Part shown: one piece after another, positions 47,267 to 52,837 of the stretch
Layout of the letters: each line of letters begins with the position of its first letter
Numbering within the stretch: the stretch's first letter is position 1
Origin: Kalymmatonema hyalinum WJT4-NPBG1
Lineage (GTDB): Bacteria; Cyanobacteriota; Cyanobacteriia; Cyanobacteriales; Nostocaceae
Length of the DNA: 53,442 nucleotides
Direction: 5' to 3'
NCBI GenBank assembly: GCA_019359075.1
Contig: JAHHIB010000062.1
Location: 1 to 53,442, forward strand
The notes under the pieces: model-generated
What the model saw: only the letters and a program-made list of their open reading frames with translations
The model's database searches: none
What the model was told of the DNA's origin: nothing
Position numbers and translations under genes: made by a program

Positions 47267-47951
47267 GATATGGTTGTAAATAAAACTAAGCCAGGCAGTA
47301 CACTTGCCTCATGTTTGTCGCAATACCCTGGTACATATATACAAATCTTATCTGATCTTATCTGAATTATCTCTGTATAGTATGTCTTCTACGATACTTC
47401 TTAATTTCTAGGAACGTCTGGCTTAAAGTACTATCCAAGTTTATTCTATACAAAATAAAATTGTGTGTGATTTTTACTCTCGTTTCTCCAATTAGCACTT
47501 AGCTATAGCTGCTCAACGTTTCAAGGTTAAAAAAACAAATTGTCAAAATTATTACCATTATAATAACGATTAAGCGGCTGTACAGATACTCTACCTCAAA
47601 ACTTTCAGAGCTATAGATTTGTGGAAGCAGCCAGTGTAGTGATTTCACGCAACATTAATGCTACTGAGTGTAAGTGATTAATTCAAAAAATCACTGACAC
47701 TCACTTATGCTTTTTGGTTAAAGGTAGCTATCTTAAATTATTTTCTATAGAATAAATACAATTTATGTAAATTTAAAAATTAAACAATATTTTTTATTAA
47801 CTCAATTCCATTGAAAATTTATTCATTTTCAATGAAATTGAGTGTCAAATTCAGAAGTTCTTTTATCAAGGAAAGTGTATAAAATGACTTGGTATAAATA
47901 ATTTTACTTAAAAGTCGTTGTCTAAAGTATCCTTAGTCATTGAATGTATCC
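47267..47951. other. Intergenic region with two hairpins before purU
   Basis: About 685 AT-rich bases. Hairpin 1 has arms 47666-47679 and 47689-47702 (14 bases, one mismatch). Hairpin 2 has arms 47802-47818 and 47827-47843 (17 bases, one mismatch) with an eight-base loop, 109 bases before the purU ATG. They might shape the leader of purU or end the upstream minus-strand gene. No recognised riboswitch. Confidence 0.5.
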
Positions 47952-48806
47952 ATGACAAGTCCAACAGCAACATTGCTAATTTCCTGTCCCGATCAAAGAG
48001 GGTTGGTCGCAAAAATTGCCAATTTCATCTACGCTAATGGTGGTAATATTATTCATGCAGATCAGCATACAGACTTTGCAGCAGGATTATTTCTTACCCG
48101 CATTGAATGGCAGTTAGATGAGTTTAATTTGCCGCGTGACTTAATTGCACCAGCATTTAATGCCATTGCTCAACCATTGCAAGCCAAATGGGAATTGCAT
48201 TTTTCCGATACTGTGCGGCGCATTGCGATTTGGGTGAGTCGTCAAGACCATTGTCTATTTGACTTGATTTGGCGACAACGTGCAAAAGAATTTACTGCTG
48301 AGATTCCTTTGATTATCAGCAATCATCCTGATTTAAAAGTGGTAGCAGAGCAGTTTGGTATCGAGTATTACCACGTTCCTATCACAAGAGAAAACAAACA
48401 AGAACAAGAAGCTAAGCAACTGGAATTGCTACAGCAGTACAAAATAGATTTAGTTGTATTGGCAAAATATATGCAAATTCTGAGTGGAGAATTTATTGCC
48501 AAATTTCCACAAGTGATTAATATTCATCATTCATTTTTACCAGCTTTTGTTGGGGCAAATCCTTATCACAAAGCTTTTGAACGTGGTGTGAAAATTATCG
48601 GTGCAACCTCTCATTATGTGACTGATAATTTAGATGCAGGACCAATTATTGAGCAAGATGTGGCGCGAGTCAGTCACCGCGATGAAGTTGAGGATTTGAT
48701 TAGAAAAGGTAAGGATTTGGAGAGAGTTGTATTAGCAAGGGCAGTGCGTTTGCACTTGCAGAATCGTGTATTGGTGTATGGCAATAGGACAGTAGTGTTT
48801 GAATGA
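47952..48806 (+). CDS. purU: Formyltetrahydrofolate deformylase
   Basis: 284 aa from the ATG at 47952 (MTSPTATLLISCPDQRG); a TTG at 47940 would add four residues. It hydrolyses 10-formyl-THF to THF and formate, balancing one-carbon units for purine and glycine metabolism. The N-terminal ACT domain (LLISCPDQRGLVAKIANFIYANGGNI) is followed by the formyltransferase core with NIHHSFLPAFVGANPYHKAFERG (active-site N and H) and DAGPIIEQDVARVSH (active-site D). All key residues are present and length is normal. Single gene with a long structured leader. Confidence 0.93.
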   Translation: MTSPTATLLISCPDQRGLVAKIANFIYANGGNIIHADQHTDFAAGLFLTRIEWQLDEFNLPRDLIAPAFNAIAQPLQAKWELHFSDTVRRIAIWVSRQDHCLFDLIWRQRAKEFTAEIPLIISNHPDLKVVAEQFGIEYYHVPITRENKQEQEAKQLELLQQYKIDLVVLAKYMQILSGEFIAKFPQVINIHHSFLPAFVGANPYHKAFERGVKIIGATSHYVTDNLDAGPIIEQDVARVSHRDEVEDLIRKGKDLERVVLARAVRLHLQNRVLVYGNRTVVFE

Positions 48807-49311: not shown

Positions 49312-49851
49312 CTAATCAGAAGGTAGGGAATTTTCAGCTAACGGTTGCGTTTTTCCTTCTATTTTTTCGGAGTTACTAATTCTAGTGTTTTCCAAAACAT
49401 GAGGCACCCAAGGTAAAGCGACAAAAATTACCCCTAAAACGACTAAAAATACAGAAATTCCAAAAATTTGGTCACGAGGAATTTCGAGGACACCGCGTAA
49501 AATAACTTCTCGCAAAGCAGAAACAATGGTAATTTCCACTGCTGCTCCTACGGATATTTGTTGTACTTGCAAGTAATCAAGTAACAAGCGAAATAACTCT
49601 ACCAAAATCAAAATGAACAAGATATCAGATGTTACTTGTCGTAAATCCAATGGATGCAAAAAAGAGGAGAACATATCTCCCAGTCGTATAAGCATCACAC
49701 AGAATAAACCAAGGCATAGAGAAATAATGATAAAGTCTTGAAAAATCTCCAGGTTACGTACAATTCTATCTCGCTGGAACAAATTGTTTAACCCTGTAAT
49801 CAGCCGTTTTGGCATGGTATCTCCGGACAGTGTAGGTTCGTCCAGATCCAT
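49312..49851 (-). CDS. PsiE-family phosphate-starvation-inducible membrane protein
   Basis: 179 aa from the ATG at 49851 (MDLDEPTLSGD); upstream residues come from a low-complexity frame. Four membrane helices are visible (FQDFIIISLCLGLFCVMLI, ILFILILVELFRLLLDYL, ISVGAAVEITIVSALREVIL, ISVFLVVLGVIFVALPW), with the family pattern LVELFRLLLDYL ... VGAAVEITIVSALREVILRG. PsiE proteins are induced by phosphate starvation in E. coli; function is unknown. A further ATG at 49815 (MPKRLITG) is possible. No operon link to the catalase-like gene, which ends with its own terminator upstream. Confidence 0.85.
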   Translation of the reverse strand: MDLDEPTLSGDTMPKRLITGLNNLFQRDRIVRNLEIFQDFIIISLCLGLFCVMLIRLGDMFSSFLHPLDLRQVTSDILFILILVELFRLLLDYLQVQQISVGAAVEITIVSALREVILRGVLEIPRDQIFGISVFLVVLGVIFVALPWVPHVLENTRISNSEKIEGKTQPLAENSLPSD

Positions 49852-49976
49852 GATAAGCAATTTAAAATTTAAAATCCAAAACGACAAAATTTGGTTTTGA
49901 TAGTCATTTCAGTAAATAAACTGAGTCAAGGACAAAAAAATATCATCTCTAGGAATTAAACGAGTATAAAAACTAA

Positions 49977-50043: not shown

Positions 50044-51111
50044 CTATTTACTACCAAAAAGTGCAAATAATTCTTCATCAGTAGGTTCAAGTTTGGAAAC
50101 ACCATTCAATTCATGCCGAAGCTGAGAAATTGATTCATATATTTGCTTGCGAGCGCGGTTCGTGTTACCTAATGGTTGATGTTCTGGTAAGGAATGCCAC
50201 GGATTGTAAGATAGATTCTCACAAAACTCCATTTGTTCGCGAGAGTCAAATTTTTGAGGAGGAACTTTGATAGTAGCGACTTTGTGAAAAGGAGATTTCC
50301 ATTCAACAGATGAATCTTCAATAGGCATTTTTTCAGCGTCTGTTTGAAACTGAATCAAAAAATCAAAACTAGATCCTTTACTGTTTAAATGCTCGACCAT
50401 TGCCTCACGGAGATAGTTGGGAGACTTAGAAACTTGCCTACCCGTAATATTCTCAGCAGAGGGTTTTGCCGAAAATTTAATTGCTCTATCACCAAATTTG
50501 TACGGCGTCATGCTCCAATATTGAATTTCCAGAGGACTGACAATCTTTTTACTCTGAATTGACCTGGCAATTATCAATTCTTGCAAACGCCATTTCAATG
50601 GATTGAAACCAGGCAAGAAAAATTTTAATGGTATAGTACCCTTTGCTGCTCTAATAGCAGCAAAAAACTCAACGTAATCTTGGAGATTGCGTATGAGAAA
50701 TACAGGATGGTTGACCAAAATAAAGTCTTGAGTGTTCTTTTCGTCTTCAACCAGCTTCTCGCCTTCCACACCCAAGAGTTTCACTGCCATACCTCGACCA
50801 TCACCTTTTGTATCAGGTTGGGCTGCATTTCCTGAAGCGTTGGAAAAGCGAATACACGCAGTAAACATCTTTCCTGGTTCTTTGAAAACGCCAACTTTCA
50901 TTTCTTCCGGTAAGTTGGTTTCAACAATAAATTCCCCTTTAACACAACCATGATGTTTAGCGTGAGCATCTCGTCGGGCTGGGCGATCGCCAGCTTGATA
51001 GTTTTGCTCAATCTGCTGTCTGGTCATTTGTTCAATGGCTTCGATAGCAGACGCCTCGTCTGGTGTTGGATATTCCCTACCAAGTTCTAATTTGCCTTTT
51101 TGAGTTTGCAT
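50044..51111 (-). CDS. Catalase-related hydroperoxide-metabolising haem protein
   Basis: 355 aa, much shorter than true catalases (about 480-750). Distal-side motif AKHHGCVKGEF (51-61), RFSNASGN (88-95) with the catalytic Asn, DGRGMAVKLLG (104-114) and NHPVF (134-138) match the catalase-related allene oxide synthase/hydroperoxide lyase group. The proximal ligand is Tyr325 in RARKQIY (RxxxY). Such proteins act on fatty-acid hydroperoxides, not on hydrogen peroxide. It lies 163 bases downstream of the cyclooxygenase-like gene on the same strand. In Nostoc punctiforme the equivalent pair makes and cleaves a 10S-hydroperoxide of linoleate. No signal peptide: cytosolic or membrane-peripheral. Confidence 0.85.
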   Translation of the reverse strand: MQTQKGKLELGREYPTPDEASAIEAIEQMTRQQIEQNYQAGDRPARRDAHAKHHGCVKGEFIVETNLPEEMKVGVFKEPGKMFTACIRFSNASGNAAQPDTKGDGRGMAVKLLGVEGEKLVEDEKNTQDFILVNHPVFLIRNLQDYVEFFAAIRAAKGTIPLKFFLPGFNPLKWRLQELIIARSIQSKKIVSPLEIQYWSMTPYKFGDRAIKFSAKPSAENITGRQVSKSPNYLREAMVEHLNSKGSSFDFLIQFQTDAEKMPIEDSSVEWKSPFHKVATIKVPPQKFDSREQMEFCENLSYNPWHSLPEHQPLGNTNRARKQIYESISQLRHELNGVSKLEPTDEELFALFGSK

Positions 51112-51274
51112 AGATCAGTTTTGGGTAGTGGGGAAGAGAAATTCGTATTTTGCACCGAGTCGTCTATCAATTTTGATTTGAAGGGTTCGTAGTAAGCGCT
51201 GTCTTCGCTAAAGCGCTTACTACAACAAAAGAAAAAAGGCAAAAGATATAATTTCTCTTTTGACTTTTGACTTT

Positions 51275-52837
51275 TTATTTACCTTGGGTCAAGGTTACTT
51301 TAAAGCGCTTGTCTGTTTGGGGAATATTGCGATGTAGGACATCCGAAAGATTTGAAGTCGTCTGAATAATTTCCATACCAATTGGTGAAAAAGTTTTTTC
51401 GTTGAAAATATTTTCAGCCAACAGGGGGTTCGTTAATGCTTGCGAAAAAGCATCGATGCCTACCAGTCTCCCAATTAAGGCACCTACAGCAGAGTTCTCG
51501 CGCGTATCTTCAGCGAAGAGTCCTACGTAGAATTCAATGTTGTCTACATGACCGTATAAACGTTTCAGCAGTTTTTGAGCTTCTACATTACCAGTAATCT
51601 GGTCGAAATCGGTGACTCGTGGAAACTGACACAATTCGCGGTAATCATTGTAGCTTGCTAAGCGTGCATCCCTACCCTGTTGGATGCTCTTTAAATCTGT
51701 ATCAATTAGGAAGGGTGCCGTGTTAAAAATACCTATTTCTCCAGCTGCTTGATTGGAAGCGTCCTCAAACAAGCGTCCCAAACCCCTACTAGTGACCATT
51801 TCCGTGTTCCATTGTGTCTCGGTTATGGGTATTTTCTGGCTATCCAAATAAACTTCATTTGGTACTAGACTGTGCCATCGATATAACAAATTAAACTCCA
51901 GAGTCATCCAATTTTGCCGATACCACTTTTCATTTGTAAAAGATAATGGCTCGACAAAGAATTTGAAGTTGTAGGGGGCAATATGATTAATATATTCTTC
52001 AAGAACAATTTTAATTAACAAAACAATGACAATATTTCTTGCTGTTTGAAAGAGTCGCTCGTCATCCCAACCACTATAATGAGCCGCTAGAACATCACAT
52101 ATGCGATTGTGTTCTCTTAAAAAAAGAGTGTTCATCATTACGTAGCCAATTTGCACATTGCCCCTCTCCTTACCCATTGCAAACAGCTTTTCTTTTTTAG
52201 CTGGCTCTAGTTCAGATTTAGGTAGAACTTCATCGGGAGATTTGAACAGAGATTTGAATTCTTCTTTAACAACTCCGTTCTCAAAATAATAGGGGCAATA
52301 TTCCTCGCCATTAATCATCTGACTCTTGAACTTACCACCTTGGTGTGACCTCAGGATGTCCGTCATTTTTTTGTTTAACCCATACAAGGGACTGACATCA
52401 ATTTCATGGTTTGAGGTGTTTTTTAAATTATTGGTGCGGTCAGTTCTTAAAAATCCATCCGTAAACCATTGGGCAAAATACGGAAACAAAAGAGTGGATT
52501 TAGAAGACAAAATTGTATCGCCTTTTCTTAAGAACAACTCCTTGAGTTCTTCAAGCGAAGGCAGTTTGTTCTCATCTACATTCACAGGTGGTAAATGACG
52601 CCCACTCCAAGTTCTATCAGTTAAGGAATCCCAAGATGTGTATTCCGCTAATGTGCTTAAAGGATAGGGGCGGGTTTTGCTTTTATATATTGCACTATTA
52701 ATCAGGAATTTGTTAATCCGCCGCTTAAGAGAGTTATTGCTTTGGGCAATATTCCAGAACCCTTGAAAATGAGTTAAAACGTAAGACTCTAACTGATTCC
52801 TGAACCCGTCCTTAACAGTACTTCTGCCTTCTTTCAT
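51275..52837 (-). CDS. Cyclooxygenase-like fatty-acid dioxygenase (haem peroxidase superfamily)
   Basis: 520 aa. The core aligns by eye with animal prostaglandin synthases: NTLFLREHNRICDVL (236-250; COX has WLREHNRVCDVL), then EFNLLYRWHSLVP (314-326) equal to COX EFNTLYHWHPLLP. The catalytic Tyr is thus Y319 and the proximal haem ligand H322. The distal region reads FAQWFTDGFLRTD (121-133), where COX has FAQHFTHQFFK; Gln is kept but the distal His appears as Asp127. It lacks a signal peptide and EGF domain. The likely reaction is peroxidation of linoleate or similar acids. The next gene codes for the catalase-related partner. AGGGA precedes the ATG at 52837. Confidence 0.87.
   Translation of the reverse strand: MKEGRSTVKDGFRNQLESYVLTHFQGFWNIAQSNNSLKRRINKFLINSAIYKSKTRPYPLSTLAEYTSWDSLTDRTWSGRHLPPVNVDENKLPSLEELKELFLRKGDTILSSKSTLLFPYFAQWFTDGFLRTDRTNNLKNTSNHEIDVSPLYGLNKKMTDILRSHQGGKFKSQMINGEEYCPYYFENGVVKEEFKSLFKSPDEVLPKSELEPAKKEKLFAMGKERGNVQIGYVMMNTLFLREHNRICDVLAAHYSGWDDERLFQTARNIVIVLLIKIVLEEYINHIAPYNFKFFVEPLSFTNEKWYRQNWMTLEFNLLYRWHSLVPNEVYLDSQKIPITETQWNTEMVTSRGLGRLFEDASNQAAGEIGIFNTAPFLIDTDLKSIQQGRDARLASYNDYRELCQFPRVTDFDQITGNVEAQKLLKRLYGHVDNIEFYVGLFAEDTRENSAVGALIGRLVGIDAFSQALTNPLLAENIFNEKTFSPIGMEIIQTTSNLSDVLHRNIPQTDKRFKVTLTQGK

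Follow-up and report, generated by a model that had tools for sequence, protein, structure and literature searches.

Does the pair of haem-protein genes near one end of the window (the whole stretch of DNA analysed here, a contig of 53,442 bp from Kalymmatonema hyalinum WJT4-NPBG1) represent this cyanobacterium's copy of the oxylipin pathway of Nostoc punctiforme, or does it encode a different one? A pair formed by NpDOX and a 10S-hydroperoxide lyase was reportedly described in N. punctiforme by Brash in 2014, and the initial annotation of the window took that organism as its model and the pathway as probably known in type. The two enzymes in question are a linoleate 10S-dioxygenase (NpDOX, B2J5P4) and a catalase-related 10S-hydroperoxide lyase (PMC13049297, PMC9579011), and they constitute the characterised bacterial pair found in our literature search. 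A cyanobacterial "catalase-heme dioxygenase fusion" of 2012 is reported to form from linoleate the two products that the mushroom pathway also yields (PMC11719350), but it is described as a fusion, whereas the genes in the window are separate. In the open-licence literature, none of the matches listed describes another such pair in cyanobacteria, going by their titles and the openings of their abstracts. N. punctiforme does hold as the closest described system, of which the window pair would be a divergent variant. Based on the protein families, the active-site residues, the clades and a recurring neighbourhood, which are its direct basis, we consider it rather probable that this pair is a second, divergent cyclooxygenase (COX)-like oxylipin cassette.

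The gene pair and its surroundings

Both genes lie on the minus strand. The upstream one (51275..52837) encodes a COX-like haem fatty-acid dioxygenase of 520 aa (hereafter the window DOX), and after a gap of 163 bp it is followed by a gene (50044..51111) for a catalase-related haem protein of 355 aa, named CATW as the window-type partner; the partner type found on contig C101 of the same assembly, the Nostoc type, is named CATB. The two same-strand open reading frames, COX-like and short catalase-like, were found where the initial annotation had placed them. The window DOX matches An_peroxidase in Pfam (8.3e-58) and COX-2 in phmmer (1.4e-68), and CATW matches Catalase (4.2e-12); these family matches, together with the motifs described below, exceed chance. 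In NCBIfam, no model matched the DOX, and CATW matched catalase HPII only, far below the cut-off. With respect to the copies of Scytonema NIES-4073, dN/dS (NG86) is 0.18 for the DOX and 0.37 for its partner, and both genes look maintained.

Upstream of the DOX gene, 605 bp remain before the end of the contig. No gene for a Tle1-like lipase is present in those 605 bp or among the upstream genes of the corresponding locus of Scytonema sp. NIES-4073 (L003), where the DOX is preceded by a 229-aa protein without Pfam match and a GGDEF protein. Downstream of CATW there is a gene for a PsiE-like protein (49312..49887, minus strand; Pfam PsiE, 2.2e-10), which adjoins CATW also in L136 and L039, followed by a plus-strand gene for a purU-like formyl transferase (47940..48806; Formyl_trans_N, 2.3e-40), a DUF4340 protein and parts of an ABC transporter. 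In Scytonema NIES-4073, a partial duplicate of CATW (90 aa, 89% identical) is found past the PsiE gene (L003:9879-10151, L136:6178-6450).

The gap between the two genes, which folds at a z of -3.77, contains a palindromic hairpin of 35 bp (51189..51223, minus strand) that is a low-copy repeat, with three occurrences in the genome when up to 3 mismatches are allowed. A promoter scan was uninformative, with 2 sites vs 8.9 expected by shuffling. A terminator scan gave 3 sites vs 2.7 expected and none in the gap between DOX and CATW; with its loop limit of 3-8, it would overlook the hairpin described above.

Another DOX-partner pair on contig C101

The search of all 174 contigs of the assembly (8.4 Mb) located a second pair on contig C101, where a gene for a Tle1-like lipase is followed by those for a DOX of 544 aa and a catalase-related protein of 393 aa. 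Depending on the alignment method, the two DOXs of this genome are 53-57% identical, and CATW and the C101 partner share 29-33% identity over their length. Which of the two pairs is the Nostoc type? In the comparison, N. punctiforme and B2J5P4 are represented by NpDOX-like proxies picked by 16 published positions; four DOXs, each of 542 aa, match all of them. The C101 DOX matches 13 of the 16, is 86% identical to one of the complete matches (L069) and shares a clade (100/99) with these proxies. The window DOX matches 11, shares about 55% identity with such a proxy and falls in a nine-row clade (100/99) apart from the nine-row NpDOX-like clade (100/99) to which the C101 DOX belongs; it is thus outside the NpDOX orthologue group. 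In the catalase tree the CATB partners form a single clade (100/99) and CATW stays outside, carrying Ala49 where the CATB set, a proxy for the N. punctiforme lyase, has Thr.

The clade and residue matches of the C101 DOX identify the C101 pair, by sequence, as the Nostoc-type pair of this organism, and the window pair as the second, divergent one. The window pair was rejected as the orthologue of the N. punctiforme pair on the grounds of the C101 locus, the tree placements and the residue differences. Since CATW lies outside the CATB clade and does not have the Thr, the lyase activity is not simply transferable to it. The model chosen in the initial annotation is therefore apt for the two families and as the nearest described system, but the Nostoc-type pair here is that of C101. 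The alignment proposed as a check, made here with N. punctiforme-type proxies and COX, retained the catalytic Tyr and His, and placed the window DOX outside the NpDOX-like clade. The likeness between the window pair and that of N. punctiforme lies in the order, DOX gene then partner gene, and in the two haem-protein families; the difference is that the window partner is of another clade, without Thr beside its distal His.

These comparisons are based on 72 DOX rows and 74 catalase rows, from which DOXs below 440 aa, catalases below 300 aa and identical rows had been left out beforehand (the DOXs of L017, L024, L037 and L073 and the partner of L011 among them). For the DOX tree 6 of the 72 rows were dropped (five truncated copies of rows present, and the short L036), and for the catalase tree 18 of the 74, which were hand-picked near copies. 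In both trees, the long branches of L137, L019 and L006 were flagged as unsure by the program.

The active site of the dioxygenase

The Tyr319/His322 pair and the REHNR motif, on which the initial annotation had relied to place the 520-aa protein close to prostaglandin synthases, are indeed present: YRWH begins at residue 319 and REHNR at 241. Tyr319 (codon 51881..51883, minus strand) aligns with the radical Tyr385 of COX and His322 (51872..51874, minus strand) with the proximal haem ligand His388, both invariant in the 66 rows of the DOX alignment, as is Tyr282 (COX Tyr348; 66/66). A point absent from that annotation is that Asp127 (52457..52459, minus strand) occupies the position of the distal His207 of COX, with Asp in 66/66 rows; the published NpDOX also has Asp there (F143tdsF; PMC13049297). 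In the catalytic and the central Tyr, the proximal His and the distal Asp, the window DOX resembles NpDOX as published or the NpDOX-like proxies. With an An_peroxidase domain, a COX-like fold and the catalytic Tyr and proximal His, it qualifies as a COX-like fatty acid dioxygenase, but not as a cyclooxygenase proper, lacking both the distal His207 (D127) and Gly526 (V459). Unlike mammalian COX-1 and COX-2, it has Asp at His207, Arg at Val291 (by alignment mapping) and Val at Gly526.

Among the 11 NpDOX positions that are kept are Y305, I306, Y342, D486, A487 and Q490, and the changes (in NpDOX numbering) are N88 to T, S146 to G, T310 to A, G469 to T and I483 to V, the last three corresponding to A287, T445 and V459 of the window DOX. 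A minireview names positions 306, 310 and 483 of NpDOX as worth testing for oxygen insertion, and aligns position 483 with Gly526 of COX and with a Val of 10R-dioxygenases (PMC13049297). A287 does not characterise the window-type clade as a whole, since its f3 members have Thr at NpDOX position 310. Regarding position 483, a scan of all window columns showed that column 459 (codon 51461..51463, minus strand) is the only one that separates DOXs by partner type, with Val in 5/5 DOXs beside CATW and Ile in 29/29 beside CATB. The residue matches the partner type in all 34 DOXs with an adjacent partner, although the sequences that show this correlation are related to one another. The 32 other DOXs, too, mostly have Val (Val in 25, Ile in 7), and for this reason the column was rejected as proof of a product switch and kept only as a correlate.

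The haem pocket of the catalase-related partner

The RxxxY and HHG motifs noticed at the outset in the catalase-like neighbour are borne out as R321-KQI-Y325 and H53-H54-G55. Tyr325 (codon 50137..50139, minus strand) is the proximal haem ligand, corresponding to Tyr353 of the coral allene oxide synthase (cAOS), and is Tyr in 42/42 CATW rows. Of the haem-pocket residues, CATW keeps R47, H50, R88, N134, Y325 and R332, and its short catalase fold with H50, N134, R321, Y325 and R332 makes it a member of the catalase-related haem proteins. It shares that fold, the Tyr-ligated haem and the R/H/N/R pocket (residue list in PMC5617202) with the coral allene oxide synthase and hydroperoxide lyase domains (1u5u) and the catalase-related protein of M. 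avium paratuberculosis (3e4y), at 15-21% identity in the structural alignment. Compared with the coral enzyme, CATW is not fused to a lipoxygenase and has Ala in the place of Thr66.

That Thr, which in cAOS precedes the distal His (PMC5617202), is found in 32/32 CATB and 0/42 CATW; in CATW the Ala49-His50 codons (50962..50967, minus strand) take its place in the alignment, and the structure model is weak at residues 47-53. Two aligned catalases carry Pro where CATW has Ala49. The T66V variant of cAOS gains catalase activity, but the cAOS of Capnella imbricata has high catalase activity with no remarkable active-site difference from that of Plexaura (PMC5617202), and so Thr beside the distal His is no clean predictor of activity. 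In three other catalase-related proteins (L049, L107 and L113), Asn replaces the distal His.

Is the association of the two genes conserved?

In four lineages a CATW-group gene comes directly after a DOX gene, both being on one strand: the genus of the window (in the window itself and in NIES-4073; gap of 163 bp in the window), G392/L137 (101 bp), the Leptolyngbyaceae L006 (44 bp) and Geodermatophilus L019 (<50 bp). To explain the distribution of the pairing label over the DOX tree, at least four changes (gains or losses) are required, with the proviso that where a locus includes about 1.5 kb of flank, a call of "no partner" may overlook one lying beyond it. Of the 388 genomes sampled from the order, 18 have CATW (E<=1e-100), 55 have a DOX (E<=1e-60) and 12 have both, a co-occurrence with a Fisher value of 2e-7 when kinship is ignored. 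In the phylum sample of 386 genomes the CATW group (E<=1e-40) was found in 17, a DOX (E<=1e-60) in 16 and both in 5. The window-type DOX (E<=1e-250) occurs in 7 of the 388 genomes of the order, which amount to 3 genera of 2 families, and CATW is present in 7/7 of them vs 18/388 overall. A further carrier of a window-type DOX, the metagenome-assembled genome L004/G671, has no CATW match at E<=1e-10.

Linkage is a different matter. DOX and CATW genes are unlinked in 6 of the 7 window-type carriers; in all six f3 genomes with a window-type DOX, CATW sits beside a purU homologue and the DOX has a neighbourhood of its own, which makes same-strand adjacency weaker evidence than it looked. In Tolypothrix campylonemoides, the one of the three window-genus genomes with a DOX fragment (L039:5995-6270), the DOX is cut to an ORF of 91 aa matching residues 432-520 and CATW is intact; in G644 (L138), of the same family, there is no DOX at the matching locus and CATW is kept. 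Moreover, a DOX at E<=1e-60 is missing from 6 of the 18 genomes with CATW. The pair is hence a two-gene cassette in the sense of adjacent same-strand genes in several lineages (window genus, L137, L006 and L019), but conserved linkage among orthologues is absent (unlinked in 6/6 f3 genomes, truncated in L039, missing in L138). Given these breaks of synteny, losses of the DOX and unpaired carriers, the link between DOX and CATW is a tendency and not an obligate operon, and synteny does not bear out an ancient operon.

Could CATW then be an independent peroxide-handling protein, such as a small catalase or an organic hydroperoxidase, whose adjacency to the DOX is incidental to the genus? This is possible, though we lean against it. 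The purU neighbourhood without DOX in f3, the retention of CATW where the DOX is truncated or absent and the carriers devoid of a DOX all agree with it, as do the non-Thr distal pocket, recalling cAOS T66V (PMC5617202), and the Pro of the two aligned catalases. So does the proximity of CATW to a gene for a DyP-type peroxidase in G488, G431 (Moorena type) and G406, Pfam having been run on the G488 copy only. What speaks against independence is the same order and strand in four lineages, with gaps of at most 163 bp, and the presence of CATW in every genome of the order sample with a window-type DOX. A functional link between DOX and CATW is, on these distributions, plausible.

As for the DyP-type neighbourhood, a catalase-related gene lies near a DyP_N peroxidase and a protein of 391-406 aa in L128 (5873-10906), L129 and L141; on the L128 copies, the only ones searched with Pfam, DyP_N gave 2.8e-12 and the 406-aa protein had no match.

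A proposed two-step reaction and the alternatives to it

Under the favoured reading of a second oxylipin cassette, and going by family and residues, the haem ligated by His322 would form a tyrosyl radical on Tyr319, which would abstract a hydrogen in allylic or bis-allylic position from an unsaturated C18 fatty acid; O2 would then be added, most likely at C10 or C8, and a fatty acid hydroperoxide would result. With Asp in place of the distal His, reduction of the peroxidase type is probably weak and the hydroperoxide would be released. In the second step, the Tyr325-ligated haem of CATW would convert that hydroperoxide. CATW need not be a 10S-lyase, since it is without the Thr that coral cAOS and the Nostoc-type partners have; a peroxidase or reductase, an isomerase or a different lyase reaction would be as likely. 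Ten FA_desaturase hits in the genome pass the cut-off, including two that are fragments of the same frame, and a single lipoxygenase hit is interrupted by an in-frame TAG, so that unsaturated substrates in the host are plausible. The logic of a COX-like DOX plus a second haem enzyme is that of the fungal DOX-CYP linoleate diol and allene oxide synthases (PMC13049297), although there the second enzyme is a fused P450, whereas that of the window is separate and catalase-related.

It is less likely, and we rate it as unlikely, that the window pair is redundant and encodes the N. punctiforme pathway a second time, in which a linoleate 10S-dioxygenase and a 10S-hydroperoxide lyase lead to 1-octen-3-ol and a C10 oxo acid. 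The two families are the same, 11 of the 16 NpDOX positions and the six haem-pocket residues of CATW are kept, and Thr at position 310 is retained in those members of the window-type clade that belong to f3. Nevertheless, C101 already provides an NpDOX-type DOX with a Thr-type partner, the window DOX has changed (T310 to A, I483 to V) at two of the positions named for oxygen-insertion testing (PMC13049297), and CATW is only about 30% identical to CATB and of a different clade. A DOX that makes prostaglandin-like endoperoxides rather than simple hydroperoxides is highly improbable, for although COX-1 and COX-2 are the nearest in fold and sequence, Gly526 of COX is Val459 here, the terminal substrate motif is NpDOX-like and not COX-like, and the published 10S-DOX does not use 18:3n-6 (PMC13049297).

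The product of the window pair cannot be assumed to be the known Nostoc product. A bolder version of the cassette reading, tentative at this stage, is that of a second prokaryotic COX-like pathway beside the 10S pathway in one cell, in which the Val459-type DOX would give a hydroperoxide different from 10S-HPODE and the Thr-less catalase relative would carry out a chemistry not yet assigned to its family (isomerase, peroxygenase or a new lyase). One genome with the known pair and a distant one offers a comparison within a single host, which could address the residue setting the oxygenation site and, for catalase-related enzymes, the role of the residue next to the distal His. An exchange of partners between the pairs would directly test whether a DOX and its second enzyme are matched.

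Related loci with other neighbours

COX-like DOXs were also found in other company. In L004 (1170-4185, plus strand), a cytochrome P450 gene (PF00067, 1.4e-16) lies 82 bp upstream of the window-type DOX, neighbours that echo the fungal DOX-P450 fusions, and in L015 a P450 homologue lies about 4 kb from the DOX. Mycobacterial COX-like DOXs are followed by an FA_desaturase-family membrane protein in L020 (5971-8927, plus strand) and also in L018, L022 and L023, the assignment being by PF00487 (1.3e-28) for the L020 copy and by BLAST cluster for the other three. A Tle1-like (DUF2235-type) lipase and a COX-like DOX share one frame, followed by a catalase-related gene, in L070 (52-2886, plus strand; 944 aa) and L071 (1456-4254, minus strand; 932 aa), and frames of more than 900 aa occur in six genomes of genus g29. 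The lipase part of these fused frames was assigned through Pfam on a separate homologue in L002 only, and the arrangement suggests that lipase, dioxygenase and second enzyme may form one pathway.
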